37,066 nt of DNA from a virus. Location: the IMG/VR virus record IMGVR_UViG_3300005096_000020, positions 1 through 37,066 of that record; one strand, 5' to 3'. Of the stretch, positions 273 to 37,066 are shown piece by piece; within the stretch, counting starts at the first letter, position 1, and every line of letters starts with the position of its first letter. A model generated the notes under the pieces. It was given only the letters and a program-made list of their open reading frames with translations, had not been told where the DNA came from and did no database searches. Both the position numbers and the translations under genes were made by a program.

Positions 273-342
273 TGGCTCCGGGGGTGGGACTTGAACCCAC
301 GACAAACGGATTAACAGTCCGCTGCTCTGCCAACTGAGCTAC
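273..342 (-). tRNA. tRNA-Asn(GTT), 3' part (bases 7-76), split by the prophage
   Basis: Read on the minus strand, this gives the D arm, an anticodon arm with loop CTGTTAA (anticodon GTT), the T arm with TTCAAGT, the 3' acceptor strand CCCCGGA, discriminator G and an encoded CCA (273-275). The 5' acceptor strand that should precede it is replaced by phage sequence that cannot pair (TATTCCG). The missing strand TCCGGGG is at 36893-36899 and pairs perfectly. Bases 1-9 from the right end plus bases 10-76 here make exactly 76 nt. As it stands this copy cannot fold into a working tRNA, so the host presumably has another tRNA-Asn gene. Confidence 0.93.
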
Positions 343-605
343 GGAATAGCTTCGAACTCGTAGGTGCGGTCCACCTCGACTCCGAGCGCCTCCAAGATTA
401 CCGAGGCGGGCACCGTACAGAGCGCCGACAGTGCCGGGACGTAGTCGATCGATGGTCGGACCGATCCCTTCCATGCCGTGTATGCGGGTGCTGACACTCC
501 GCACATCTCGGCTGCTTTGCGTGCCGAGATCCCTCGCTCGTCCTCTGCCTGTTCGAGTAGTTCACCCAGTGGTGATACATATCTGTGGAGCATTGGGGCT
601 GCCAT
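339..605 (-). CDS. CI-like phage repressor, prophage (truncated) form with attP in its 3' end
   Basis: An 88-residue XRE-type helix-turn-helix protein. The DNA-binding fold spans about residues 20-73, with the recognition region around GVSAPAYTAWKG. The ATG at 605 has a good ribosome site (GGGAGG, 6 nt upstream). It should bind the operator at 668-678 and hold the lytic genes off. The stop codon TAG (339-341) is made from tRNA bases 8-10, so the gene ends exactly at the junction. Joining the phage ends gives a 105-residue viral form with the extra tail YRESAYRALVIPFSRTA, whose stop overlaps the integrase start. The repressor role is inferred from fold, position and divergence from a Cro-like gene; no binding data are implied. 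Confidence 0.85.
   Translation of the reverse strand: MAAPMLHRYVSPLGELLEQAEDERGISARKAAEMCGVSAPAYTAWKGSVRPSIDYVPALSALCTVPASVILEALGVEVDRTYEFEAIP
340..342 (-). other. Left attachment junction (core GTA)
   Basis: Minus-strand reading is phage ATTCC, then GTA, then host GCTCAG. The shared core with the right junction is only these three bases, which correspond to tRNA positions 7-9. The phage half is the 3' end of the repressor gene; the host half is the tRNA D arm onward. Confidence 0.85.
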
Positions 606-646: not shown

Positions 647-676
647 ATCGTAAGCACAAACTACAAAACTTGACAA
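647..676 (-). promoter_or_regulatory. Repressor promoter
   Basis: On the minus strand TTGTCA (676-671) and TACGAT (652-647) are separated by 18 bp. Transcription would begin near 640 and give a leader of about 35 nt containing the repressor ribosome site. The -35 box overlaps that of the opposing promoter almost base for base. Confidence 0.6.
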
Positions 677-705: not shown

Positions 706-873
706 ATGCCAAGTCAACCTCCAACTCGGGAACGTGTCCTCACCTACACAGCCCAGGGACTCACACCTCGCGAGATCGCACGCATCCTCGAGTGCTCCGT
801 CCAAAACGTCTACCTCCACCTCAAACACGCCGGCGTCAAACCTGCACAAGCAACGAAGGTTGAGACGCCGTGA
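706..873 (+). CDS. Cro-like small helix-turn-helix protein
   Basis: A 55-residue protein made almost entirely of one helix-turn-helix (about residues 8-42; core GLTPREIARILECSVQNVYL), like the HTH of LuxR or sigma region 4. It is divergent from the repressor and is the first gene of the rightward transcript, the place of Cro in lambdoid phages and of the Cro-like gene in BPs-type phages. It probably competes for the same operator and favours lytic growth. ATG 706 is chosen because the -10 box places the start site at or next to it. It could instead serve as an excisionase-like DNA-bending factor; no other excisionase candidate was found. Confidence 0.7.
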   Translation: MPSQPPTRERVLTYTAQGLTPREIARILECSVQNVYLHLKHAGVKPAQATKVETP

Positions 874-13623: not shown

Positions 13624-13700
13624 CTCCGGTAGTAGCTCAACGGACAGAGCCACTGGTATCGCCCAGTAGATGTGGGTTCGAATCCCATCGTGACCGGAGT
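13624..13700 (+). tRNA. Unusual tRNA-like gene
   Basis: A perfect 7-bp acceptor (CTCCGGT with ACCGGAG), a D arm GCTC/GAGC and a T arm with TTCGAAT are present. The anticodon stem ACTGG/CCAGT is perfect but closes a 6-nt loop (TATCGC) instead of 7, and four extra bases (CGTG, 13689-13692) sit between the T stem and acceptor strand. If the first loop T is U33, the anticodon would read ATC. It may be a decayed tRNA, an unusual decoder or a tRNA-shaped RNA. Confidence 0.55.
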
Positions 13701-17899: not shown

Positions 17900-18556
17900 G
17901 TGCCACCCGATCCGCCACCCGCCGACCCGCCGGCACCACCCGATCCGCCACCCGCCGACCCGCCGGCACCACCCGATCCGCCACCCGCCGACCCGCCGGC
18001 ACCGTCGACAACCCTCGAGGGAGACGCCCTCAAGGAGGAGCTCGCAAAGACACGGCGCGAAGCAGCGAAGTATCGCACGGAACGCAAGGCCGAACGCGAA
18101 CGGGCAGAAGCCCTCGAGAAGCAGCTTGCTGGCATCTCGAAAGCGATCGGTGTCGACGATCCAGAGCCGGATCCCGAGAAGCTCACAGCACAGTACGAGC
18201 AGGCTATGGCGAAGTTCCGCAAGGAACGCACCAGCAACGCCGTCGTCACTGCAGCAGCAGACCAAGGCGCAAACATCGAGATGATGAGGTACTACCTCAC
18301 CGGATCGGGAGCGCTCGAAGACCTCGACATAGAGGCAGAAGACTTCGCTGTCCAGGTGGCAGACAAGGTCAAATCCGCGATCGAGTCACACCCGGAGCTC
18401 AAGGCCGGGCAACTCGGCCCAGGTTCCGGAGATCAGGGCCCACGCGGAGGGGCGTCGCAGCTCACACGCGACGACCTGAAAGACATGGAACCAGAGCAGA
18501 TCGAAAAGGCACGCCAAGACGGACGCCTCGACACGCTCATGGGCAGAAACACCTGA
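17900..18556 (+). CDS. Capsid scaffolding protein with Pro-rich N-terminus
   Basis: 218 residues from GTG 17900. Residues 2-34 are three exact copies of PPDPPPADPPA. A coiled coil follows (about 40-85; EELAKTRREAAKYRTERKAE), then an acidic helical region and a C-terminal segment ending RLDTLMGRN. Coiled-coil scaffold genes lie just before the major capsid gene in many siphoviruses. The Pro-rich tail is an unusual addition. No protease motif seen. Confidence 0.75.
   Translation: MPPDPPPADPPAPPDPPPADPPAPPDPPPADPPAPSTTLEGDALKEELAKTRREAAKYRTERKAERERAEALEKQLAGISKAIGVDDPEPDPEKLTAQYEQAMAKFRKERTSNAVVTAAADQGANIEMMRYYLTGSGALEDLDIEAEDFAVQVADKVKSAIESHPELKAGQLGPGSGDQGPRGGASQLTRDDLKDMEPEQIEKARQDGRLDTLMGRNT
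17903..18001 (+). repeat. 33-bp tandem repeat, three identical copies
   Basis: The unit codes for PPDPPPADPPA and is repeated three times with no base difference. Lack of any silent change indicates recent expansion or gene conversion. Copy-number change would keep the frame and alter only the length of the Pro-rich scaffold tail. Confidence 0.95.
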
Positions 18557-34574: not shown

Positions 34575-34780
34575 CGTGCGTCGAGACACGCTTCCCGTGT
34601 AGAGGCGACAGATTCTCCTTCCACGTCACGACCTAGACGCGTATCGTTGGCGACAGCCGACACGGTGAGGCACGGTAAAGCCTCGACAGCACCGATCCGG
34701 CTGCGTCTGCCACCGCACCTTTGAACGGGTCCAGCGGTCCAGACGCGCAGCAACAGTGGCAGACACCCAACCGACACGTA

Positions 34781-34786
34781 CATAAT
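34781..34786 (+). promoter_or_regulatory. -10 box of the exonuclease-BRCT gene
   Basis: CATAAT (consensus 5 of 6). No good -35 is visible. The expected start site is about 34793-34796, at or beside GTG 34796, so the message is probably leaderless. Confidence 0.5.
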
Positions 34787-34795
34787 GCCGACACA

Positions 34796-35710
34796 GTGGA
34801 GCTCACACACCTCGCAGCAATCGACTTCGAGACAGCAACCCCGCAACGCTCATCCGCCTGCGCAGTCGCACTCGCGGTCCCACACGATGACGGTTCCATC
34901 GATACTCAGTCTTGGCTTCTGCAACCACCAGACAACGAATACGCTGACATCAACATCGGGATCCACGGCATCCACCCCAGCGACACATCCAACGCTCCGA
35001 CACTCCTCGACGTGTGGCCACAGATCGACAGCCTCATCGCAGACCGGATCCTCGTCGCACACAACGCCGCGTTCGACATGTCTGTACTCTCGAGCTCATA
35101 CGCTCTCCATGCCGACGCGCTCCCACGGCCGTACCAGTACCTGTGCACACTCCACCTCGCCCGAATCGTGTGGCCTGACCGCGACTCGCACAAGCTCGTC
35201 GACATCGCCGAAGATCTCGGACTCGACACGACCGACCACCACAACCCACTGTGGGACGCATGGGCAGCGGTCCAGGTTGCTGAAGCACTGATCGCAGCGT
35301 GTAGCGTCGAGACACTCACCGGCGTTGCCGGGTTGCATGGATTCGGTCCGTTGACCCTCGGAGCCGCAATGCAGCAGCATCGATCCGGTCATGTGAAAGC
35401 GTCGTCGATGGTCCCCGACAGCGTCGTCGATGGCAGCCACCCGCTGTATGGCCAGCTGGTCGTCATCACCGGGTCACTCCCAAACGGAATGTCGAAACGT
35501 CAAGCGTATCAACAGGTGGTCAACGTCGGTGGCCGTGTCGCAGATAACGTGTCGCGCAAGGTCGACATCCTTGTCGCAGACGGCATCGAGTCACGCCGTG
35601 ACGGAAGCAGGCGCCTGTCAGGGAAGCTGAAGAAAGCCACAGAGCTCGCCGAGCAGGGACATCCGATTGTGCTGATGGAAGCCTCAGAGTTCCTGAGACT
35701 CCTCGGCTGA
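34796..35710 (+). CDS. DnaQ-like 3'-5' exonuclease with C-terminal BRCT domain
   Basis: 304 residues. DEDD exonuclease motifs: DFET (10-13), HNAAFDMSVL (89-98, D94) and HHNPLWDAW (148-156). Residues about 217-304 (YGQLVVITGSLPNGMSKRQA; VNVGGRVADNVSRKVDILVA) are a BRCT domain. Such proteins trim or proofread DNA ends. GTG 34796 is chosen because the exonuclease fold begins at once and a -10 box lies just upstream. It is outside the late transcript, so it may be expressed in the lysogen. Confidence 0.8.
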   Translation: MELTHLAAIDFETATPQRSSACAVALAVPHDDGSIDTQSWLLQPPDNEYADINIGIHGIHPSDTSNAPTLLDVWPQIDSLIADRILVAHNAAFDMSVLSSSYALHADALPRPYQYLCTLHLARIVWPDRDSHKLVDIAEDLGLDTTDHHNPLWDAWAAVQVAEALIAACSVETLTGVAGLHGFGPLTLGAAMQQHRSGHVKASSMVPDSVVDGSHPLYGQLVVITGSLPNGMSKRQAYQQVVNVGGRVADNVSRKVDILVADGIESRRDGSRRLSGKLKKATELAEQGHPIVLMEASEFLRLLG

Positions 35711-35969: not shown

Positions 35970-36842
35970 TCAGGCGACGTACTGCAACGAGTCGACAGCA
36001 CGACGCAACCTCTGCGCGTTCACGCGCGTGTAGATTCTCGTCGTATTCGGGTCCGCGTGTCGAGCGAACTCCTGAGCCGCCCTCAGATCGCCTGTAGCGT
36101 CGTTGATCGTCGCGATGGCAGTATGACGCAGACGGTGAGGAGAGAGCCCATCTACCCCTGCCAATGTTCCTACACGCCCGACCCAGTGCCCGACTGTCCC
36201 AGCCGATACATGTGCCGATGAGCGGCCGGGGAACACCCACGGAAACGCACCCATCCGACCCTTGAGCTCAGACGCCAACACTGGATGCACCGGCAACACC
36301 GCTTCCACGTCGCCTTTCCCCAACACGGTGTACCACTCGAAGCCACGATCGAACCGGTCCCACCGTGCCCGAGCGATTTCCTCACGCCGCAACCCGAGAT
36401 ACAACCCGAACAGCACAGCAGCCCCATCAGGCCACAACCCCAAAGCAGCCCGGGCAAGTGCAGCAGCATCGTCGGGCTCGAGCGCACGTGACACTCCACG
36501 TTTCTTCGGCGGCACCCGTATCGCTCCAACCGGTGCAGACACGCCGAGCTCGTCGAAGAAGTGCCGCAACGCTACCCGGTGCTGCCGCCTCGACGTCGCT
36601 GTCTGCGGAATCGATTGGGCGTAGATCGCGAGGTCCAACGCACTCGGGCTCGAAATGTCGACGTCTTCATCGACAGCGTATGTGATCCACCGCTCGGCTG
36701 CCCGCCGATACACTTCGATTGTGCGCTCGGCTAAACCGAGCGCGTACAGGTATTCAACGAACGAGTCCACGACCACCACCCCTTGCTTTCCCCCCGCATT
36801 ATCGGAAGCAGTGGTGACGAGCTTGAGCGCGGAACGTTTCAC
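35970..36842 (-). CDS. int: Tyrosine integrase, arm-less XerC/D-size
   Basis: 290 residues. Core-binding domain about 22-110, catalytic domain 118-285. Active-site residues: R152 (GLRREE), K176 (GKGD), H236 and R239 (HRLRH), H262 (RHADP), Y271 (RIYTR). No N-terminal arm-binding domain, as in simple XerC/D-like integrases. GTG 36842 has no ribosome site; in the free phage it overlaps the repressor stop (GTGA), so translation would be coupled. In the prophage that coupling is lost. It recombines attP in the repressor gene with attB in tRNA-Asn. Confidence 0.92.
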   Translation of the reverse strand: MKRSALKLVTTASDNAGGKQGVVVVDSFVEYLYALGLAERTIEVYRRAAERWITYAVDEDVDISSPSALDLAIYAQSIPQTATSRRQHRVALRHFFDELGVSAPVGAIRVPPKKRGVSRALEPDDAAALARAALGLWPDGAAVLFGLYLGLRREEIARARWDRFDRGFEWYTVLGKGDVEAVLPVHPVLASELKGRMGAFPWVFPGRSSAHVSAGTVGHWVGRVGTLAGVDGLSPHRLRHTAIATINDATGDLRAAQEFARHADPNTTRIYTRVNAQRLRRAVDSLQYVA

Positions 36843-36893
36843 GCGGTGCGAGAGAACGGGATGACGAGCGCACGGTATGCCGATTCGCGATAC
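36839..36893 (-). pseudogene. Detached 3' end of the viral-form repressor gene
   Basis: Continuing the repressor frame from CCG across the core GTA gives codons for YRESAYRALVIPFSRTA and a TGA (36841-36839) that overlaps the integrase GTG. In the prophage this piece has no start codon of its own and is not expressed as repressor. It becomes the C-terminus only when the ends are rejoined on excision. Confidence 0.85.
36891..36893 (-). other. Right attachment junction (core GTA)
   Basis: Minus-strand reading is host TTCCGGG, GTA, then phage TCGCGAATCGG. Together with the left junction this gives attP ATTCC-GTA-TCGCG and attB CCGGG-GTA-GCTCA. Confidence 0.85.
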
Positions 36894-36899
36894 CCCGGA
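36891..36899 (-). tRNA. tRNA-Asn, 5' part (bases 1-9)
   Basis: TCCGGGG plus TA: the first acceptor strand and bases 8-9. It pairs perfectly with CCCCGGA at 277-283. The host tRNA promoter upstream (to the right) would now transcribe into the integrase region. Confidence 0.88.
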
Positions 36900-36929
36900 A
36901 GGTGTTCAACACGATGGTGAACGGCCCGG

Positions 36930-36935
36930 AGGATA
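36930..36935 (-). promoter_or_regulatory. Possible -10 box of the host tRNA-Asn promoter
   Basis: TATCCT on the minus strand, 31 bases upstream of tRNA base 1. No clear -35. If real, it now points at the integrase gene. Confidence 0.3.
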
Positions 36936-36981
36936 CCACCGCGGCTGCCCAACCCCTTGTGGGCGTGCGGGCCGCTCCTGC

Positions 36982-37066
36982 CTACTTCGAAGAGATCGAC
37001 AGCGTGAGCGCCGCAAGCAGACCGTCGGGGTCATCCGTCCCGATGCGGAAGGTCTTCCCGGACGAA
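36982..37066 (-). CDS. C-terminal end of a host protein (partial)
   Basis: The last 28 or so codons of a minus-strand gene entering from beyond the window: SSGKTFRIGTDDPDGLLAAL, then TLSISSK and TAG (36984-36982). The FRIGTDDPxGLLAAL pattern is typical of the ends of actinobacterial membrane or PH-like proteins, but too little is present for a firm call. It marks host DNA. Confidence 0.5.
   Translation of the reverse strand, partial: SSGKTFRIGTDDPDGLLAALTLSISSK

Follow-up and report, generated by a model that had tools for sequence, protein, structure and literature searches.

Integration-dependent immunity is established for the mycobacteriophages of Clusters G, I, N and P (PMC4557955) and has been described, or at least predicted, in Gordonia phages (PMC4929511, PMC5559632) and in the Bifidobacterium prophages Bb423phi2/689b-1 (PMC6109161). 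The principle is already known, also outside Mycobacterium, contrary to the preliminary description of the locus studied here, which had recognized no case beyond the mycobacteriophages and had named as an example Giles, a phage that is not among the integration-dependent groups listed in PMC4557955. In BPs, Brujita and the M. abscessus prophages, the repressor (rep) and integrase (int) genes form one unit, attP lies inside rep, and attB lies in a tRNA gene (PMC4557955, PMC9262239, PMC8092301). The family described below shares this layout and, like the BPs type, has a stop codon supplied at attL, a longer viral form of the repressor that usually ends in -AA, an apparently armless tyrosine integrase and a divergent Cro-like gene. 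In the BPs type, however, the core of about 35 bp is the 3' end of the tRNA gene, antisense to rep, and the tRNA keeps its promoter, whereas in the present family the core is short and corresponds to the 5' end of the tRNA in the sense orientation, the stop codon is U8-A9-G10 of the tRNA, the tRNA loses its promoter, and the integrases mostly lack -AA. The family thus appears to represent a variant of the known principle, defined by the sense orientation at the tRNA 5' end.

The 3'-end antisense arrangement was found in all nine known phages that we checked (Brujita, Obliviate, Jeanie, Butters, Ewald, WST1, Babsiella and Walrus, and Clown by eye); overlap of attB with a tRNA 3' end is usual, although not universal, and the present family departs from it. 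Obliviate, Jeanie/McGonagall and the Bifidobacterium prophages follow the same principle outside Mycobacterium, but Obliviate and Jeanie use the tRNA 3' end in antisense, and their integrases are about 31% identical or less to those of the family. The M. abscessus attB-12 and attB-13 prophages, also integration-dependent, have a core that extends into the 5' end of a protein gene, so that, as is predicted for the family, transcription of the downstream host gene has to start within the prophage (PMC8092301); unlike in the family, their targets are protein-coding genes and the stop codon is not a tRNA base triplet. Finally, in the tRNA-dependent lysogeny of Fionnbharth and Gaia, as in the present family, the core is short and lies within a tRNA gene, and the tRNA at attL of our record is broken, but there the core falls in the 3' half of the tRNA and a cognate phage-encoded tRNA is required (PMC10865867), whereas the relatives G304 and G113 keep intact tRNAs. 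No description of the sense arrangement at a tRNA 5' end was found in the literature that we searched, which included few subscription papers.

The window, that is, the whole stretch of DNA analyzed, is a 37,066-base IMG/VR virus record that contains one complete prophage with short host flanks. The prophage (positions 342–36892, about 36.5 kb) is siphovirus-like, with terminase, portal, capsid and tape measure genes, and has no nucleotide relatives among isolated phages. Among its other features are a tandem repeat at 2686–2840 (as many as 13 copies of TCGGGCTTGGGC or its variants) within an ORF, where it codes for Arg-Ala-Trp-Ala-like repeats; a 33-base repeat in three identical copies at 17903–18003, in a Pro-rich scaffold-like protein; and, near the integrase end, a DEDDh exonuclease with a BRCT-like C-terminal part (34721–35710).

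The left flank (1–272) is the host DNA downstream of a tRNA-Asn gene, and the right flank (36893–37066) is the host DNA upstream of the same gene, comprising the tRNA leader and promoter, which now precede int. At the right end the minus strand reads host ...GAACACCTTCCGGGGTA and then phage TCGCGAATCGG..., and the attR core (36891–36900, minus strand) consists of host TTCCGGGG followed by TA, with the leader and promoter side of the tRNA beyond. Joining the host sides of the two junctions yields TTCCGGGGTAGCTC..., a perfect tRNA-Asn; in the joined sequence, TTCCGGGGTAGCTCAG..., the acceptor strand TCCGGGG pairs with CCCCGGA of the same tRNA. The entire 74-base tRNA-Asn is present in four metagenome-assembled genomes (MAGs) of Acidimicrobiia/Actinomycetes, and in one of the four, a related Acidimicrobiia MAG, locus L006 is an empty site, with both window flanks lying side by side around an uninterrupted tRNA (48 bp upstream at 85% identity; the tRNA and downstream sequence, 154 bp, at 88%). 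Because L006 holds the empty site, it confirms independently what was observed in the window. No direct repeats of 12 bp or more were found between the prophage ends, so the core must be short. At attL, the remnant of the core (339–346, minus strand) reads TTCCG---TAG, whereas comparison with attR, the host locus L006 and the relatives L074 and L072 leads to the expectation of TTCCGGGGTAG.

The repressor gene, encoding an XRE-like HTH protein of 88 aa, occupies positions 605–339 on the minus strand; it is phage-coded down to 342, ends ...EFEAIP, and takes its TAG (341–339) from bases 8–10 of the host tRNA-Asn. When the phage sides are joined (left end at 342; right end from 36,892 reading down), the frame continues from ...EAIP into YRESAYRALVIPFSRTA before a stop, adding 17 codons, so that the viral form in the record measures 105 aa. 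At attR lies the part of rep that integration has cut off, its 3' end (36839–36892, minus strand), from TAT at 36892–36890 to the stop TGA at 36841–36839. Both central claims of the preliminary description, namely that attP lies inside the repressor gene, which integration truncates at the TAG from tRNA bases 8–10, and that the two forms comprise 88 and 105 residues, were therefore reproduced, the former from the junctions together with the empty site and the latter from the record itself; what that description had missed are the sense orientation at the tRNA 5' end, the family-wide stop at bases 8–10, the loss of the tRNA promoter and the three-base lesion at attL, and these four are the novel points of the present analysis.

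The integrase (35970–36842, minus strand) is the next ORF downstream of rep; the earliest codon at which it could start, a GTG at 36,842, overlaps the stop codon of rep. It is a tyrosine integrase (PF00589, 2e-16; PF02899, 3e-5; phrog_1 integrase) ending in -YVA, with SAM-like core-binding and catalytic domains only; no arm-type domain was found in it. As in the known systems, then, a tyrosine integrase without an arm-binding domain adjoins rep. The closest integrases of isolated phages are 27–31% identical (at most about 31%) and include those of Butters, Babsiella and prophiT36-2a, all from known integration-dependent groups. Upstream, rep gives weak HMM matches (HTH_3, E=3.5e-4; HTH_31, E=4.8e-4, both under the curated cut-off), and a single-sequence AF2 model contains five helices at pLDDT 60, too weak for a fold search. 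Neither single-sequence nor two-row profile searches of viral contigs recovered close relatives of this repressor, and only one genome (G102) holds one; a homologue with 44% identity occupies the same place at L074:1551-1868. A candidate rep promoter, P_rep (TTGTCA-18-TACGAT; 647–676, minus strand), precedes the gene, and a candidate operator at 669–677, CTTGACAAG, occurs once in the window and again in the intergenic region between rep and the HTH gene of L074. Divergent from rep is a small HTH-like (Cro-like) ORF of 55 aa (706–873, plus strand, inside ORF 478–873; counterpart at L074:1956-2153), preceded by a promoter-like TTGACA-17-TAAGGT spotted by eye at 670–698. Together, rep, the divergent ORF and the shared 9-mer are predicted to make up the usual repressor/Cro-like control region.

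A single in-frame extension proves little, and the argument is carried by the family. Four close integrases emerged when 138 genomes belonging to the same order were searched; profiles built from these identified eight, then more IMG/VR contigs, plus one genome, G304. The search of related phages for rep genes spanning attP, as the preliminary description had proposed, thus succeeded, with 22 further members: G304, with both junctions on one contig; G113, with junctions on two contigs; and 20 loci in the unintegrated form. Throughout, an HTH ORF located directly upstream of the integrase gene runs through a core resembling a tRNA 5' end and terminates just or slightly before int, so that attP lies inside the repressor ORF in the 20 unintegrated loci as it does at the window junctions. 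The integrases, of about 265 aa and apparently armless, end mostly in -DYL, and only that of L082 carries a tag-like C-terminus (-KAA); such a tag is typical of the BPs type without being universal, and several M. abscessus systems accepted as integration-dependent do without it (PMC8092301). In L082 and L104 the core was not identified, in L177 and L178, with 39% integrases, the arrangement is absent, and a pattern search found no attL matching the attR of G096 (L025).

In 21 of the 23 members (the window, G304 and G113 included), the codon formed by tRNA bases 8–10 lies in the reading frame of the HTH repressor and is turned into TAG by integration; the probability of this by chance would be about 1e-8 if the members were independent, an overstatement given that they are related. 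Among the unintegrated loci, tRNA base 8 falls on codon position 1 in 18 of 20, and in those 18 the attP codon is TAT, TGG, TTG, TCG or TCT and never TAG. The two remaining loci, L084 and L095, retain TAG in attP in another frame; for L084, a tRNA-Phe like that of G304 would stop the frame at TGA in the anticodon region. At attL of G304:C73, a 41.6-kb contig, the repressor ends ...GATVNGDTVG at the TAG of an intact tRNA-Phe, and at attR YRASAGQRPRVPASARVIPGLAAAAA and a stop precede int, the viral tail being ...VIPGLAAAAA. In G113, an intact tRNA-Val provides the TAG that follows ...SPGNYAKGV in the prophage form, and the other contig carries SRNSILATVAA and a stop at attR. Three prophages, at tRNA-Asn, tRNA-Phe and tRNA-Val, therefore read alike at both junctions, with a shorter repressor whose stop is supplied by the host at attL. 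The converse state is represented by G014:C40 (L072, L073), a 33.8-kb, circular-looking phage contig with a 77-base terminal overlap and an intact attP, which was binned with a host whose tRNA-Asn is intact. The true tRNA 5' ends TCCGGGGTAGCTC, GCCGGGTTAGCTC, GGGCGTTTAGCTC, GGGGCTATAGCTC and GCCCCTGTAGCTC are all present in genomes of the group, and TAG occupies bases 8–10 in 95 of 132 tRNA predictions (some loci being counted more than once). At least seven groups of repressors unlinked by blastp share the arrangement. Given that most tRNAs offer T8-A9-G10, an integrase that targets the 5' end would provide any upstream repressor with a ready stop codon, which may explain how one integrase family came to be combined with so many unlinked repressors.

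These findings make it likely that the window and its family encode an integration-dependent immunity switch of a distinct type. The sequences show that rep and int form one transcription unit in the phage, that the 3' end of rep contains attP, and that the attP core corresponds to the 5' strand of the acceptor stem in a host tRNA (TTCCGGGGTA in the case of tRNA-Asn). Recombination at this end of the tRNA, as the three prophages show, fuses rep in frame to it; the conserved U8-A9-G10 of the tRNA is then read as the stop codon TAG, and the last 17–18 codons of rep remain at attR, before int. By analogy with BPs (PMC4557955), and given the -AA tails, the phage form with its ssrA-like tail would be degraded and confer no immunity, and the trimmed prophage form would be stable and repress the lytic promoter; immunity would thus come from the short form. 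If correct, this would extend integration-dependent immunity to phages of Acidimicrobiia, of which apparently none have been cultured.

The phage core would also be expected to rebuild the tRNA, as is seen in G304 and G113, where it is intact at the junction, but not in the window record, where it is broken. Here the host tRNA-Asn(GTT) is represented by bases 8 to the 3' end (273–341, minus strand; ARAGORN, 273–345), and the acceptor 5' strand as recorded lacks three G that are present both at attR and in the host, bases 5–7 being absent; no cloverleaf can form, the Rfam match is restricted to model positions 7–64, and the fold energy is -23.0 kcal/mol compared with -32.0 for the intact host sequence. 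Such a lysogen would be abnormal, its tRNA unable to fold, unless the record is wrong or a second tRNA-Asn exists. No second tRNA-Asn is present in the record and none is encoded by the phage according to ARAGORN and Rfam; each of the four genomes with the identical tRNA contains a single full tRNA-Asn match, which in MAGs is not proof. The tRNA cluster of the phage itself (13545–13786) comprises a tRNA-Met-like gene, an odd tRNA-like sequence (13628–13696) with a 6-nt anticodon loop, missed by ARAGORN, and a tRNA-Ser(CGA), so that a cognate tRNA-Asn of the kind required by Fionnbharth and Gaia is lacking. At L055 (G102:C186), ten tRNA genes are arrayed within one short stretch, perhaps from a large phage binned with the MAG.

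Probably, the missing GGG reflects either an assembly error or decay of this copy, with inactivation of its tRNA once the phage had integrated. The record is its sole source, and GGGG occurs at attR and in all tRNA-Asn-type relatives, the attP of which contains TTCCGGGGTA or TCCGGGG, although loss of three bases from a four-base run is atypical of assembly errors and a lysogen devoid of tRNA-Asn should not live. In either case this copy alone is concerned, and the immunity switch is unaffected. An improbable alternative is that the phage truly shares with its host a core of only 3 bp (GTA), that the absence of GGG is native to its attP, and that integration breaks the tRNA-Asn, a reading that excludes an attP of the form TTCCGGGGTATCGCG. 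The record as it stands has GGG at attR and not at attL, as such a core would produce, and tRNA-dependent lysogeny indeed involves short cores with only about three conserved bases (PMC10865867); on this reading, however, TTCCG beside the junction on the phage side would be a coincidence, and the integrase of L074, 69% identical to that of the window, uses TTCCGGGGTA. The spacing of the inverted core-type arms points the same way. These arms are CGCGATA-TGGGGC-TATCGCG in L079, CGCGTTA-AGCCGGGT-TATCGCG in L078 and AGCGATA-TTCCGGGG-TATCACC in L074, and the distance between them is mostly 8 bp in the members (8 in L074, 6 in L079), whereas the recorded window would have 5. The lack of a phage-encoded tRNA-Asn, with one tRNA-Asn in the relatives, further weighs against a breaking integration. 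Because of the GGGG in the attP of the relatives, the arm spacing and the otherwise coincidental TTCCG, loss of GGG after integration or in the record appears more likely than an attP natively without it. No further attP sequence of this phage, which could settle the matter, turned up in our search; the attP junction of the window phage is expected to span GCTATTCCGGGGTATCGCG. Neither the frame nor the TAG depends on this question, and the intact forms are probably 106 aa in the phage and 89 aa in the prophage rather than 105 and 88.

Instability of the viral form, put forward with reserve in the preliminary description, gains support from the family as a whole; for the window the degron is only putative, because its tail ends in the non-canonical -RTA. 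Sixteen of the 23 viral repressors end in -AA (VPAA, QAA, PLAA, VAA, SAA, PAA and so on), compared with a background of 20 among 281 long ORFs that were called mechanically on the same DNA (binomial, about 7e-14 under independence, which overstates the excess as the members are related). Degradation of proteins with tagged C-termini by ClpXP is established ssrA biology, and the tmRNA tags of seven host genomes of the group end in ALAA or AMAA; the -AA ends of the viral repressors being similar, host proteases should recognize them. The six other exceptions end in LVS, PAV, DVA (2) and EAV (2). We regard the -RTA of the window as a caveat and not as a refutation, because some accepted integration-dependent systems of M. 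abscessus also lack -AA (PMC8092301). That the tails are no degrons at all, with trimming altering DNA binding or multimerization or being neutral, and selection merely keeping the frame open through the Int site, would accommodate the seven tails without -AA, as well as the need for the DNA between the arms to serve Int; it is nonetheless unlikely, as -AA ends are far above background and the tails, 6–82 codons long and varied in sequence, converge at the C-terminus. Least credible is an ordinary prophage end at which rep merely adjoins attP, the extra codons being read through by chance and having no regulatory meaning, since, unremarkable as the 17-codon extension of the window would be by itself, the family data disfavor it, with the same frame at tRNA base 8 in all but two members, no TAG in the 18 in-frame attP forms, and the -AA tails and arrangement recurring across unlinked repressor groups.

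The integration-dependent switch, with its core at the tRNA 5' end, has a further predicted consequence, namely that integration would move an essential tRNA under phage transcription. The host tRNA promoter is left at the other end, before int, and, judging from the geometry, transcription of the tRNA would start at P_rep or at a promoter within rep, such that an essential host tRNA and phage immunity would share one transcript; RNase P cleavage at tRNA +1 would fall just before the rep stop codon. It is conceivable, although we put it at slightly less than even, that the prophage in this way captures the tRNA, which, having lost its own promoter, would be made from a rep transcript that has its stop codon within the tRNA; processing by RNase P would then compete with translation for the same RNA. 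If so, cleavage before translation would leave a rep mRNA without a stop codon, and a cell that lost rep transcription would be starved of the tRNA, so that survival of the host would be tied to the lysogenic state. By eye, TANNNT occurs 8–16 nt before the tRNA in about 8 of 21 members and is absent in the window (TACGAG). In G304:C73 (L241, L242), the phage sequence and the displaced host promoter both contain GGCGCTACGGT 23 nt before tRNA-Phe, and the copy in rep is a possible substitute -10 element; a promoter embedded in the 3' ends of rep genes is kept here as an idea only.

Other elements appear to exploit the same tRNA-Asn from its opposite end. Locus L006 (1–240) carries the C-terminus of a different integrase at the 3' side of the gene, belonging to an element that seems to use that end, and G002:C1:49380-49427 (L014) is a 48-bp exact copy of the 3' part of tRNA-Asn, probably left behind as an attachment site by an element that uses the 3' end.
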